Source of the DNA: Terriglobia bacterium
GTDB lineage: Bacteria > Acidobacteriota > Terriglobia > Bryobacterales > Bryobacteraceae
Assembly: GCA_020073345.1 (NCBI GenBank)
Contig: JAIQFI010000003.1
Coordinates: 124,001 to 188,000, forward strand
Length of the DNA stretch: 64,000 nt
Reading direction: 5' to 3'
Positions 35,290 through 46,598 of the stretch are shown one piece after another. How positions within the stretch are numbered: the first letter of the stretch is position 1; each line of letters starts with the position of its first letter. The translations under genes were made by a program, and so were the position numbers. The notes below the pieces were generated by a model, which saw only the letters and a list, made by a program, of their open reading frames with translations, was not told the origin of the DNA and did no database searches.

Positions 35290-36687
35290 TCACTTCGCAT
35301 CATTTACTTCATGAGCCGCGCGATTGCCCGATTCGAGCGCGCCCTGCATCCAGCCGAACCACGGCGAGGTGTGCTCGCCCGCGAAAAACACACGACCTTC
35401 GCGGCGCGCGATGTGCGGTAGAAGCGTCGACATCTGATCGCGCTTGAACCAGGCGAATGCGCCCTTCACCAGCGGATCGGCGTCCCACGCGATCGACACG
35501 GCTTTTTCCGAGCTAACGCCCGGGAATACCTTCTGAAGGTTCTCGACGACCGTGCCGACGCGCTGGGGTTCGGAAAGCGACGCTAAGCGCCGCGCGCGTT
35601 CGCCCGAGGTGTAGCATTCCAGGATTCCGCGCACGCCGGGCTGGCCTTCCGCGCAGTCCCACACCGTCCCGATGGGGAGATCCGTGGCGGCGAACCCGGA
35701 GAGCCCTTCCGCGATCCAGGGCCGGGTTGGGGATTGCACATAGACGCGCGTCACCGAGTTGTAGCTCAGCTCGCGAATCGCTCGTTGCTTGCCCTCGCTG
35801 AACCCGGGCGACACCTCGATCGATCGCAGCACCGGGAACGGGATCGCGCAGATCAGATAGTCGGCGGAGATCTGGCTGCGGCGGCCGGATGTGTTCACGG
35901 TCACGGTCACCTGCTTGCTGTTCTGTTGGATACGCAGGAGCGTTGTACGGTAATGGACACGCGCGCCCAGGCTGCTGGCCAGCGCCTTGGGAAGCTGGTC
36001 ATTCCCCCCGCGGATGCGGAATGACGCGCCCTTGCGGGCGATGGCTTCGTCGCGCAGCAGGCACAGCGCCGAATCCGGCGCCGTCCCGTTGTCCCAGGAA
36101 TCACTGTAGGTGATCTGGAGCAGCGCGATCTCCTCGGGCGATGCGCCGCGGCTCTCGAGCAGCTCGGACATCGAGATCCGGTCGAATTGCCGGAGCAGAT
36201 CAGATGATGGCCACCCCGGTGCAAGCGGATCGCCGATCTCCCTAACCGCCGGCTGAACATACTTGCGGGAAAGGTCGGAGCCGGAACCGGAGCGCCGCCC
36301 ATCCCGAAACACGAGCGACGTCAACGTTCCAAAGTTCCAGGCGGGCATCGTCTCCAGATGAAACTCCTGAACATAGTGCTGAACGAAATTGTGGGTTTGC
36401 CCGAAGGTCTCGGCTCCCGCCTCGGCATACTGGCCATCGGCGAAACTGTCGCGCAAAGTCAAGACTCGGCCACCAGGGTGCCCGCGGGCATCAAGCACGA
36501 TGACCTGGTGGCCCGCCTGAACCAATTCGTAGGCTGCGGAGAGTCCCGCTAGTCCCGCGCCGGCGATGAGGATTCGCTTGGGAGGGCGGCCAGCGCCTCG
36601 CAGGGAAAACGACCCCGCCGGGAGGATGGCTGCTTTAAGAAGATCGCGCCGGGAGGGATTGTACAGGGCAAACCGCCCGAGGTTCAC
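35290..36687 (-). CDS. FAD-dependent amine oxidase, Tat-exported
   Basis: The 465-residue protein starts with a twin-arginine signal (NPSRRDLLKAAILPAGS), then the FAD-binding motif GAGLAGLSAAYELVQAG and the dinucleotide-binding GGRVLTL. The C-terminus has the flavin-covering motif GRVFFAGEHTSPWFGWMQGA and ALESGNRA, as in monoamine and polyamine oxidases and L-amino-acid oxidases. It would act in the periplasm. GTG 36685-36687 overlaps the upstream stop as GTGA and places the Tat motif at about residue 10; the open frame continues 75 bases upstream into the neighbouring gene. It is the last gene of a unit with a repeat peptide and a membrane protein. Confidence 0.87.
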   Translation of the reverse strand: MNLGRFALYNPSRRDLLKAAILPAGSFSLRGAGRPPKRILIAGAGLAGLSAAYELVQAGHQVIVLDARGHPGGRVLTLRDSFADGQYAEAGAETFGQTHNFVQHYVQEFHLETMPAWNFGTLTSLVFRDGRRSGSGSDLSRKYVQPAVREIGDPLAPGWPSSDLLRQFDRISMSELLESRGASPEEIALLQITYSDSWDNGTAPDSALCLLRDEAIARKGASFRIRGGNDQLPKALASSLGARVHYRTTLLRIQQNSKQVTVTVNTSGRRSQISADYLICAIPFPVLRSIEVSPGFSEGKQRAIRELSYNSVTRVYVQSPTRPWIAEGLSGFAATDLPIGTVWDCAEGQPGVRGILECYTSGERARRLASLSEPQRVGTVVENLQKVFPGVSSEKAVSIAWDADPLVKGAFAWFKRDQMSTLLPHIARREGRVFFAGEHTSPWFGWMQGALESGNRAAHEVNDAK

Positions 36688-37391
36688 GATTGAACCGACG
36701 AAGTACTGACCCCCGCCGGAGGAGTCGAGTTCTTCCGGGCGGTGGGCCGGAACGCCCAGCACCAGATCGACACGCTGGCCAGATAGGTGAGAGTCTTAAA
36801 CACATTCGCCAGCTGCTGGGGGGTGCTCTGAGGAGGCGCGTAGCGCCTGAGGCCAAACGCAATGGCAGCTCCGGTTACGGCCACGCCCAACCCTGCGCTG
36901 ACCTTCAGCAGCAGGGGATCGCGTTTTTTGTTTGCGATCAGCGCAGTCCACAAACCCAAGTTCATGATGGCGCCCCCGAAATTGAGCAGTTGACTGGTGC
37001 CGTCAAACCAGGCCCGGCTGAACCTGCGGGCACTGAAAAGCACGAATGGCACTACCAGAACAATGATGAGCACCGCCCCTAACAGCCGGCCCATCCCGGC
37101 CCGCATGGGGCTTCCTTCCAGCGCCCGGTAAGTAAGAGTGATCACCATCAGAACCACCAAGAGATCCAGGGTCATCTCATCGGTCCAATACAGGGTTCGG
37201 AAGAAGTCCGTTTGCCCATGGACGCGATAGACGTATTCCTCCGTTACAGTGGCCGCAAGCTGCAGGGCACAATACGCCAGGAGAAGGGGATAGCGCCGGA
37301 AAGAAGAACTACGCAGGAGGAAGAAAATTACAACAGCCTGAATAGAGATACTAATCGCCTCCAGGACCAGAGCGACCTGGATTAAGGCCAT
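36684..37391 (-). CDS. Seven-helix-type membrane protein, unknown function
   Basis: The 235-residue protein has about seven hydrophobic segments: near 8-25, 35-50, 75-90, 105-122, 140-155, 165-182 and 205-222. Loops include the acidic YVYRVHGQTDFFRTLYWTDE and the arginine-bearing LLRSSSFRRYPL. I do not recognise a family with known function; similar proteins seem frequent in Acidobacteria. It lies 60 bases downstream of the repeat-peptide gene and overlaps the amine oxidase gene by four bases (GTGA). It could be a processing, export or sensory component for the peptide. Confidence 0.8.
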   Translation of the reverse strand: MALIQVALVLEAISISIQAVVIFFLLRSSSFRRYPLLLAYCALQLAATVTEEYVYRVHGQTDFFRTLYWTDEMTLDLLVVLMVITLTYRALEGSPMRAGMGRLLGAVLIIVLVVPFVLFSARRFSRAWFDGTSQLLNFGGAIMNLGLWTALIANKKRDPLLLKVSAGLGVAVTGAAIAFGLRRYAPPQSTPQQLANVFKTLTYLASVSIWCWAFRPTARKNSTPPAGVSTSSVQS

Positions 37392-37451
37392 ACTCCGACC
37401 TCACACCGAATAGCCCGGAGACCGGAGCAGCCTTTTGCTTTACAAAGAGAA

Positions 37452-37733
37452 CTAGACCAAACGCACGTTTCCGCCGTTACCGTCGTCATCGGGCGGCCAA
37501 ACCGGCCCATGCGCAACGATGTTCCCACCGTTACCGTCGTCGTCGGGAGGCCAAACCGGCCCGTGCCCAATAATATTTCCGCCATTACCGTCGTCGTCGG
37601 GAGGCCAAACCGGCCCGTGCGAGAGCAACCGTAAGTTGCTGCTTCCATAGGCGATGGCGCCCACCATCAGCGCCAAAACAATTACTGCGCAAATTGTAGC
37701 ACAGAGTACTAATGAACTACGAAATTTTCTCAT
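37452..37733 (-). CDS. Small exported peptide with three tandem repeats HGPVWPPDDDGNGGN
   Basis: The 93-residue product has a basic N-terminus (MRKFRSS) and one long hydrophobic segment (residues 8-30) acting as a signal peptide or membrane anchor. Then come three copies of an 18-residue unit HGPVWPPDDDGNGGN plus a three-residue spacer (IIG, IVA, VRL). Copies are identical over 15 residues while third codon positions vary, pointing to selection on the protein. The product resembles a precursor from which several equal peptides could be cut. ATG 37731-37733 has only a weak AAGG upstream. A multi-pass protein and an FAD amine oxidase gene follow on the same strand. Confidence 0.78.
   Translation of the reverse strand: MRKFRSSLVLCATICAVIVLALMVGAIAYGSSNLRLLSHGPVWPPDDDGNGGNIIGHGPVWPPDDDGNGGNIVAHGPVWPPDDDGNGGNVRLV
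37455..37619 (-). repeat. Three tandem 54-base coding repeats
   Basis: Units lie at about 37566-37619, 37512-37565 and 37455-37511. Each encodes one HGPVWPPDDDGNGGN block. Differences are almost all synonymous. Confidence 0.9.
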
Positions 37734-45914: not shown

Positions 45915-46598
45915 ATGCATAAGCTCTTCTTGAACGTTGCCGCAGTCCTCGTGTTCGTTGCACTCGTAATTCTAGCCCAGGCACCCGAGGGTGGAGTTCC
46001 CGCTGGCAAGGCTCCCACCGGTCCCGATGCTGTGGCTGCAAACATAGTGAACACCGTCTGCGCCTCGTGCCATTCGCTTCAGCGCGTCAAAGACAAGATG
46101 GCGGACAAGGATGGGTGGACGACCACTGTCACTCGCATGCAGGGGAAGGGTGCGGATCTGACGGATGCGCAGGTTCCGGTAGTTGTCGAGTATCTGACCA
46201 GGGCTGCCAGCACGCTCACCGTCGCGGCTGCCGATGGTAAAGGTGGCGGTAAGGGTGGCGGCAAGGGCGGCAGGGGCGGCGGCAAGGGCAAGCAGACGCC
46301 ATTTTCAGCGGGAGGGGCAGCCGTCGTCAGTGCCGACAATCTCAAAGTGCTCACGGCGCAGAACGTCGAATACACGATGCAGAACATCACTTTCGCGCTC
46401 GGAGTCGGCTGCATATACTGCCACGATCTGAACGACTTGTCGCTCGATACCAAGCCCAAAAAGTTGAAGGCTCGCATGATGCTCGAGATGGTGCGCGACA
46501 TCAATGCGAAGTTCGGGGACGGGCAGACTCACGTCACCTGTTGGACGTGTCATCACGCCTCAACCGAGCCGCAGATCGCCAAACCATCCACCAACTAG
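45915..46598 (+). CDS. Trihaem c-type cytochrome (reaction-centre-cytochrome-like)
   Basis: The 227-residue protein is a paralogue of the gene at 44731 with the same order: signal segment (LFLNVAAVLVFVALVILA), CASCH domain with DGWTTTVTRMQGKGADLTDA, a Gly/Lys/Arg linker, then CIYCH and CWTCH. The C-terminal domain is closer to that of the inverted gene at 45385 than to its plus-strand paralogue. The frame is open 168 bases upstream, but that stretch is antisense to the inverted gene's start region and is rejected. A periplasmic electron carrier is likely. Confidence 0.87.
   Translation: MHKLFLNVAAVLVFVALVILAQAPEGGVPAGKAPTGPDAVAANIVNTVCASCHSLQRVKDKMADKDGWTTTVTRMQGKGADLTDAQVPVVVEYLTRAASTLTVAAADGKGGGKGGGKGGRGGGKGKQTPFSAGGAAVVSADNLKVLTAQNVEYTMQNITFALGVGCIYCHDLNDLSLDTKPKKLKARMMLEMVRDINAKFGDGQTHVTCWTCHHASTEPQIAKPSTN

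Follow-up and report, generated by a model that had tools for sequence, protein, structure and literature searches.

We describe a pair of adjacent genes, one for an exported-type precursor of tandemly repeated peptide units and one for a seven-helix membrane protein, in a 64,000-nucleotide stretch of contig JAIQFI010000003.1 from a Terriglobia bacterium (the whole of this stretch is called the window). The pair was followed through genomes of two families of the same class, the window's own family (f1, 150 genomes) and a second family (f2, 120 genomes), and it is conserved. On balance, and with slightly more than even confidence, we propose that the locus encodes the precursor of a secreted peptide signal together with its cognate seven-helix membrane receptor.

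The gene pair and its conservation

In the window the genes lie on the minus strand and follow each other, from 37733 downwards, in the order peptide, seven-helix protein and amine oxidase:

37452-37733, minus strand: repeat-peptide precursor, 93 aa (stop included), with three identical blocks HGPVWPPDDDGNGGN
37647-37733, minus strand: signal-like N-terminal segment of the precursor, residues 1-29, MRKFRSSLVLCATICAVIVLALMVGAIAY (by eye)
37566-37619, minus strand: precursor unit 1, HGPVWPPDDDGNGGNIIG (Tandem Repeats Finder and block comparison)
37512-37565, minus strand: precursor unit 2, HGPVWPPDDDGNGGNIVA (same methods)
37455-37511, minus strand: precursor unit 3, HGPVWPPDDDGNGGNVRLV (same methods)
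36684-37391, minus strand: seven-helix membrane protein, 235 aa, proposed peptide receptor (AlphaFold2 model and family alignment)
35290-36687, minus strand: flavin adenine dinucleotide (FAD) amine oxidase, a lineage-specific neighbour outside the conserved pair

An initial annotation of this DNA had described an exported-type protein of 93 residues in which one block occurs three times unchanged, followed by a seven-helix protein and an oxidase overlapping it by GTGA, and all of these were confirmed at the positions listed above. The three blocks start at 37619, 37565 and 37511, and the 54-base array was independently detected by Tandem Repeats Finder as the top of its five rows for the window (score 240, 2.9 copies). 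Compared in pairs the blocks differ by 4, 5 and 5 bases, and as each difference is silent and at codon position 3, the repeat appears to be maintained at the protein level. The N-terminus of the precursor consists, as judged by eye, of a basic and a hydrophobic stretch, and the protein is presumably exported. The region had no excess of promoter-like or terminator-like sites over shuffled sequence, and the 60-nt leader between the peptide and seven-helix genes showed no unusual folding (z −1.30). Elsewhere in the window, at 46236-46289, there are short tandem arrays of 12 and 21 bases, rich in GGC and AAG.

When the peptide was used as query against the genome contigs, 110 stretches with the pattern were obtained and no relative was confirmed, therefore the seven-helix protein was taken as bait. 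As query it gave 74 matches in 71 of the 150 f1 genomes, and a profile of the seven-helix family found homologs in 73 of the 150, representing 42 of 76 genera. All matches but one fragment were taken further, and 69 of these 73 were re-located by local tblastn, 52 with at least 500 bp of upstream sequence and 17 with less. Upstream regions were analyzed with a motif-blind detector, which calls a tandem repeat together with a hydrophobic start in an open reading frame (ORF) ending no more than 700 bp upstream of the seven-helix gene; 248 regions upstream of other genes within the same f1 loci served as controls. The results showed a clear difference, as an exported-type tandem-repeat ORF was present at 37 of the 52 loci vs. 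none of the 248 controls, and the detector was also positive at 8 of the 17 loci with less than 500 bp. By eye, the 52 loci were divided into 41 with tandem units, two with a single copy (L116, L118), four with a kinase-like ORF upstream (L108, L117, L121, L127) and five where none was seen (L083, L098, L111, L125, L128). Masking or filters made four of the 41 repeat loci escape the detector, among them L129, which lacks a clear signal-like start.

Peptide homologs were found at E ≤ 1e-3 in 21 distinct places, the window's own included; in 16 of these a seven-helix gene follows, and the other five lie within about 120 bases of the downstream contig end (hand count). Between the peptide array and the downstream seven-helix gene there are 41-150 bp in all but one of 49 arrays, the exception being at 616 bp. 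The conserved core of the locus is the pair of peptide and seven-helix genes, and the earlier proposal of a precursor with several equal cores next to a membrane protein is borne out by this tight linkage.

In several cases the assemblies break at the peptide array (f1 contigs G108:C304, G147:C40, G026:C8 and G026:C15), and given such breaks the peptide gene may often be missed by annotation pipelines. A search of 396 genomes sampled across the phylum with the DNA pattern GPxxPPDPW matched two, once each, and no pair was found among the ORFs at those loci; this sample contained only three f1 genomes, and the pattern does not match the window either, so the result says little. No relative was found in phage records, and of 61 stretches from IMG/VR none was confirmed.

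The amine oxidase behaves differently from the pair. Its GTG start at 36687 shares GTGA with the stop of the seven-helix gene and gives a protein of 465 aa beginning VNLGRFALYNPSRRDLLKAA; the mechanical ORF list has a longer version of 490 aa from 36762, which was the one used in the Pfam scan (Amino_oxidase, E 6.8e-71). The start contains SRRDLLKA, which we take to be similar to a twin-arginine (Tat) motif. By tblastn, in loci that included as much as several kb of flanking DNA, the amine oxidase was present at one of the 69 seven-helix loci, the window's own. Within the window's genus, 5 of 21 genomes (own included) carry a relative at E ≤ 1e-30, and in three it stands directly behind the peptide and seven-helix genes: the window's own genome, G660 (83% identical) and G659 (82%). 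The copy in G659 (locus L223) holds two stop codons, both TAG, and may be decaying or misassembled. The oxidase looks like a recent, local addition. Thus, co-conservation of the three genes, which the initial annotation had put forward as its check, is strongly supported for the peptide and its seven-helix partner and fails for the oxidising enzyme, which had been counted as part of the unit.

Repeat units and the seven-helix partner

The units are near-identical inside one array and different across genera. Examples from f1 are HGPTIPPDPWDGVRLA, HGPLLPPDPWETVAAVRVG, SISPLPPPDPWGDGL, AHIAPPPDIWEL, FGPLPPPDDDGTFIA, GGPIPPPDDNGTFAL, AAGPWPFPDDSAGGNI, SGPGPAADGF and IGPTLPPNPWDEGPPKLT, and divergence between genomes is illustrated by HGPTIPPDPWDG, AHIAPPPDIWE and FGPLPPPDDDGT. 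Copy number ranges from 1 to about 9 and the repeat period from about 10 to 26 residues. All 49 arrays found at the DNA level have periods divisible by three. Comparison of each copy with the next gave 62 mismatches at codon position 1, 40 at position 2 and 575 at position 3. The excess at the third position is absent from 5 of the 48 arrays that have mismatches, one of the five being read in the wrong frame. A first count of silent to replacement changes, 555 to 27, was biased since the repeats had been chosen by protein identity, and was replaced by the codon-position count; locus L072 was in the wrong frame in the first count and is still included in the second. Judged from the codon positions, the repeat peptide is under selection at the protein level.

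The borders between units were compared in 62 distinct junctions from 29 precursors with an (X)GP-type unit start. At −1, 45 of the 62 have a small residue (background of A/G/S/T in the repeats, 0.28), and at −2 one of the aliphatic residues L, V and I is found in 50. In 22 of the 29 precursors A, S or G likewise occupies the −1 place at the first junction after the leader, which suggests that a single processing site may be used throughout the precursor. Dibasic sites are absent (K at −1 in 4 of 62 junctions, R at −1 in none, K or R at −2 in none). Precursors of other grammar, e.g. L103, L106, L112 and L122, do not fit the junction pattern.

Units and seven-helix proteins diverge together. 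The distance between units correlates with that between seven-helix proteins (Mantel r 0.60, n = 54, p 2e-4), and among the 1346 pairs below 45% identity r is 0.50. For 16 loci with a neighbouring AAA ATPase gene the correlations are 0.60 for peptide and seven-helix protein, 0.45 for peptide and ATPase and 0.76 for seven-helix protein and ATPase; with the ATPase held constant, the first of these becomes a partial correlation of 0.45 (n = 16, p 0.0016). Part of the correlation is explained by shared descent.

AlphaFold2 models have seven long helices both for the window protein (predicted local distance difference test, pLDDT, 87.6; predicted template modelling score, pTM, 0.81) and for a homolog from Candidatus Solibacter (pLDDT 88.8, pTM 0.84). 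Basic residues are concentrated in the C-tail and in the three loops that follow helices 1, 3 and 5 (mean K+R over 68 rows of the alignment: inner loops 2.41, 1.74 and 2.68, C-tail 3.50; outer loops 0.28, 0.74 and 0.90), and this distribution predicts an N-out/C-in orientation. The outer halves of the helices are more variable than the inner halves (2.49 vs. 1.97 bits, p 4e-6, 68 rows), with the exception of helix 4. W148 is the sole invariant column of the wide alignment A1 (66 sequences), where no polar residue exceeds 90%; in a closer set of 31 sequences the charged residues R97, D144, D158 and R215 do so.

In Foldseek searches against the PDB, G-protein-coupled receptors (GPCRs) made up nearly all of the 50 rows listed for each model; microbial rhodopsins accounted for a few, and the Solibacter list also had one zinc transporter. 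The best E-values were 0.014 (window) and 0.010 (Solibacter). VIA-align gave for the window model LYCHOS (14.9; root-mean-square deviation, rmsd, 4.9; 214 aligned), a class T GPCR (14.6; 5.8; 225) and ADGRL3 (14.5; 4.9; 203), and for the Solibacter model a designed GPCR-like fold (13.9; 4.3; 212) and LYCHOS (13.5; 4.9; 217), on a scale where 13-14 is reached by helical bundles alone, so that these lists leave room for other folds. The A1 profile had one match among PDB sequences at E ≤ 10, rhodopsin 6kfq (E 0.027), and the best match of the second-family profile was a designed protein (E 0.0086). Going by these weak matches of predicted models, the arrangement is similar to that of GPCRs and rhodopsins, with which a shared ancestry is possible. 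Retinal binding is unlikely, since a lysine occurs anywhere at 191-210 (helix 7) in just 5 of 68 rows and no retinal-type lysine is conserved. Pfam and NCBIfam gave scattered weak matches for the 66 first-family proteins, each in one or two members (best E 1.3e-4), and Pfam gave one weak match in one of 13 second-family proteins; by these scans the family is covered by no Pfam or NCBIfam model.

Second family, plasmids and recurring neighbours

Across the phylum sample the A1 profile found seven-helix homologs in 13 of 396 genomes: three from f1, seven from f2 and three from other families. Reciprocally, profile A6, which contains 13 distant sequences only, finds the window protein as the sole match in its genome (E 3e-16), showing that the two seven-helix families are related. 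A6 has matches in 112 of the 120 f2 genomes, often several per genome and at most 11. Three genomes of one f2 genus (G405, G584, G633) have 8 to 11 each, possibly by expansion of paralogous pairs. Related peptide and seven-helix pairs are also found on two plasmids of Acidisarcina polymorpha, and as this is a member of the Acidobacteriaceae, f2 is probably that family. On pACPOL1 the peptide (WP_114211177.1), the seven-helix protein (WP_114211176.1) and a one-helix protein (WP_150133198.1) are each annotated as hypothetical protein.

Small exported-type proline-rich ORFs were found upstream of the seven-helix gene in 20 of 37 f2 loci vs. 3 of 248 controls, the controls here being taken from the f1 loci and two of the 37 (L149, L150) being nearly identical. 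Repeated peptides in f2 are SIPMSPIPVGRVVS in five copies, TAANMPVFPTPPAVK in five copies with small changes, and FGPGDPSPIGH; a single-copy peptide is GGDPWPDIRTQTPTCPVCK. The 17 loci that failed the peptide criteria include L146, where repeats are visible by eye, and all seven members of 297-361 residues. L146 and L154 have a tandem pair of seven-helix genes behind a repeat-peptide ORF. One subgroup of f2 peptides (L149, L201, L207, L211 and Acidisarcina P0004 and P0005) has a hydrophobic end in FGL, LGL or LGF and is unlike the repeat type.

Downstream of the seven-helix gene, a gene for a protein with an apparent N-terminal helix and a soluble part was present in 10 of 14 loci (three of the ten outside f2) and in 16 of 27 loci in a further set. 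It overlaps the seven-helix gene by four bases in six of 26 loci. These one-helix genes were treated as one family by eye, and Pfam gave nothing convincing for the four proteins scanned (best E 0.1).

Other neighbours were counted in the 57 f1 loci amenable to gene parsing. An AAA ATPase is present in 19, two genes upstream in 17 (PF13401 in both that were scanned). A GFO_IDH_MocA oxidoreductase (Pfam on two) is present in 16, and in 15 it is the next gene after the seven-helix gene and has the same orientation, e.g. in L068 (6962-8296), L107 and L131 (6758-8164), with a gap of 55-92 bp in the three measured. It is unrelated to the amine oxidase, thus some members of the family do have an enzyme as a recurrent neighbour. 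Either aspS or hisS lies nearby in 7 loci. We read these neighbourhoods as shared gene order, and a role of the ATPase or the oxidoreductase in the peptide system is possible.

The four loci with a kinase-like gene upstream all belong to one genus (g42) and no peptide was seen there; by eye, a receiver-like ORF ends 74-95 bp before the seven-helix gene, both of the upstream ORFs that were scanned contain PAS, HisKA and receiver domains by Pfam, and the kinase cluster appears in 4 of the 57 parsed loci. In L067, L068, L113 and L131, genes of Csm type (type III clustered regularly interspaced short palindromic repeats, CRISPR) are located upstream of the pair, followed in L068 by an AAA ATPase; Csm4_C and RAMPs were confirmed by Pfam in L068, and the other three were assigned by resemblance.

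Proposed function, alternatives and known systems

Taken together, the sequences show the pair, its conservation, the selection on the peptide, the co-divergence and the charge topology, and from these we infer export, cleavage, binding and signalling in the following way. The precursor would be exported and its proline-rich units cut apart at the aliphatic-small junction just before the (H/S/I/F)GP unit start. Once free, the units would dock on the outer face of the seven-helix protein from the next gene; this protein, whose outer half varies more than its inner half, would relay the signal into the cell. Candidates for the next step are, in the second family, the short one-helix protein whose gene directly follows that of the seven-helix protein and, in one first-family genus, the kinase whose gene directly precedes it. 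As each lineage has units of its own, the signals would be specific to a species or genus. We favour a signal and its receptor because the neighbourhoods recur, the seven-helix family is frequent in f2, the units differ by silent changes and the outer half is variable. The initial annotation had left open export or sensing for the membrane protein, and of these sensing is the better supported, though short of proof.

Strict linkage and co-divergence would also be expected of a dedicated exporter or processing protease. The seven-helix protein could then export, cut or anchor the repeat peptide, while the units act elsewhere, at the surface, in the matrix or in binding of metals or nutrients, and the four charged residues conserved in the closer set would suit such a protein. 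We consider this unlikely, as the precursors have their own signal-like segment and the general secretory (Sec) route could suffice, as conservation in the wide alignment is reduced to W148 with no polar residue above 90%, and as single-copy peptides of the second family need no cutting apart. Rather less probable is that the peptide is a Sec-exported bacteriocin and its neighbour the immunity protein. A small exported-type peptide next to a multi-helix protein, both diverse in sequence, the several seven-helix copies in some second-family genomes and the two pairs on plasmids can be explained in this way, but the chromosomal neighbours that recur (aspS/hisS, ATPase and GFO_IDH_MocA) and the homologs in 112 of 120 second-family genomes speak for a different role, and identical tandem units are not known to us from bacteriocins.

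PPD, PPN and PPP are known as strong stallers of ribosomes, and with the array so close upstream (41-150 bp) the proline-rich repeats might act as a regulatory leader that sets expression of the membrane gene. We regard this as very improbable in view of the copy number of 1 to about 9, the units lacking PP in some lineages (SGPGPAADGF; SIPMSPIPVGRVVS in f2), the signal-like N-terminus and the co-divergence with the seven-helix protein. Least probable of all is a multi-core ribosomally synthesized and post-translationally modified peptide (RiPP) matured by the amine oxidase or another linked oxidoreductase: the equal cores containing Trp and His, the overlap of the oxidase with the window's seven-helix gene, its same placement in two near relatives and the GFO_IDH_MocA gene that immediately follows the seven-helix gene at 15 of 57 loci point that way, but the amine oxidase is found in 1 of 69 loci and has two stops in one of its three carriers, GFO_IDH_MocA belongs to a different enzyme family and is absent at the majority of loci, and none of the neighbour clusters shown was recognised as a known family of RiPP enzymes.

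If the locus is indeed a signal and its receptor, sensing by a free-standing seven-helix protein with a tandem-unit exported peptide would be new among bacteria. The best-known cases of peptide signalling are from Gram-positive bacteria, where the sensors are kinases or cytoplasmic regulators, and a bacterial pairing of tandem-unit exported peptides with a linked seven-helix protein is not known to us. As the initial annotation had said, the combination appears to be without a described system: we found no such pair in the open-access literature searched, which is weak evidence of absence because most subscription journals and all preprints are outside its scope. According to the abstract of PMC8687355, GPCRs are observed in eukaryotes only. 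It is conceivable, at distinctly less than even confidence, that a class of bacterial receptor without a described member has been found across two families of the phylum; it is judged new since none of the scanned libraries has a model for these seven-helix families and no comparable bacterial system is known to us. Equally tentative is the idea of an Acidobacteriota peptide language built like fungal mating, with tandem-unit precursors, linked GPCR- or rhodopsin-like receptors and, in some lineages, a one-helix transducer.

The proposed function would give a handle on cell-cell signalling in the Acidobacteriota, a phylum that is abundant in soil and poorly represented in culture, and as the units can be read from genomes it allows direct testing with synthetic peptides. 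It would also bear on whether peptide receptors arranged like GPCRs have had more than one origin. Whatever the function is, protein families outside Pfam (for the members scanned) are now described together with their partners.

With multi-core RiPP precursors of the cyanobactin and graspetide type the peptide shares several equal cores per precursor; unlike there, no modifying enzyme consistently adjoins it, the amine oxidase being found at one of 69 loci and the commonest enzyme neighbours, the AAA ATPase and GFO_IDH_MocA, in 19 and 16 of 57. Seven helices with an N-out/C-in orientation are common to microbial rhodopsins, which are present in the fold lists, but the helix-7 lysine of the rhodopsins is not conserved in this family. 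The same arrangement, predicted here by model and charge distribution, is that of the GPCR superfamily; to our knowledge bacteria have no heterotrimeric G protein. As in bacterial peptide quorum sensing (Agr, ComX/ComP, Phr/Rap), a self-made peptide would be exported and perceived by a linked sensor, with a lineage-specific sequence. The locus differs from these systems in that the sensor would be a free-standing seven-helix protein instead of a histidine kinase or cytoplasmic regulator, kinase-like neighbours being found in one genus only, and in its tandem equal units and its phylum. The fungal alpha-factor/Ste2 system serves as a working analogy, with no claim of membership. The present locus is bacterial, its two genes are adjacent, its units are proline-rich and many contain aspartate, and the 62 junctions have no dibasic (Kex2-type) sites. 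What the two have in common is a precursor with a signal-like N-terminus and several equal short units, a seven-helix partner, here proposed, and the joint divergence of both.

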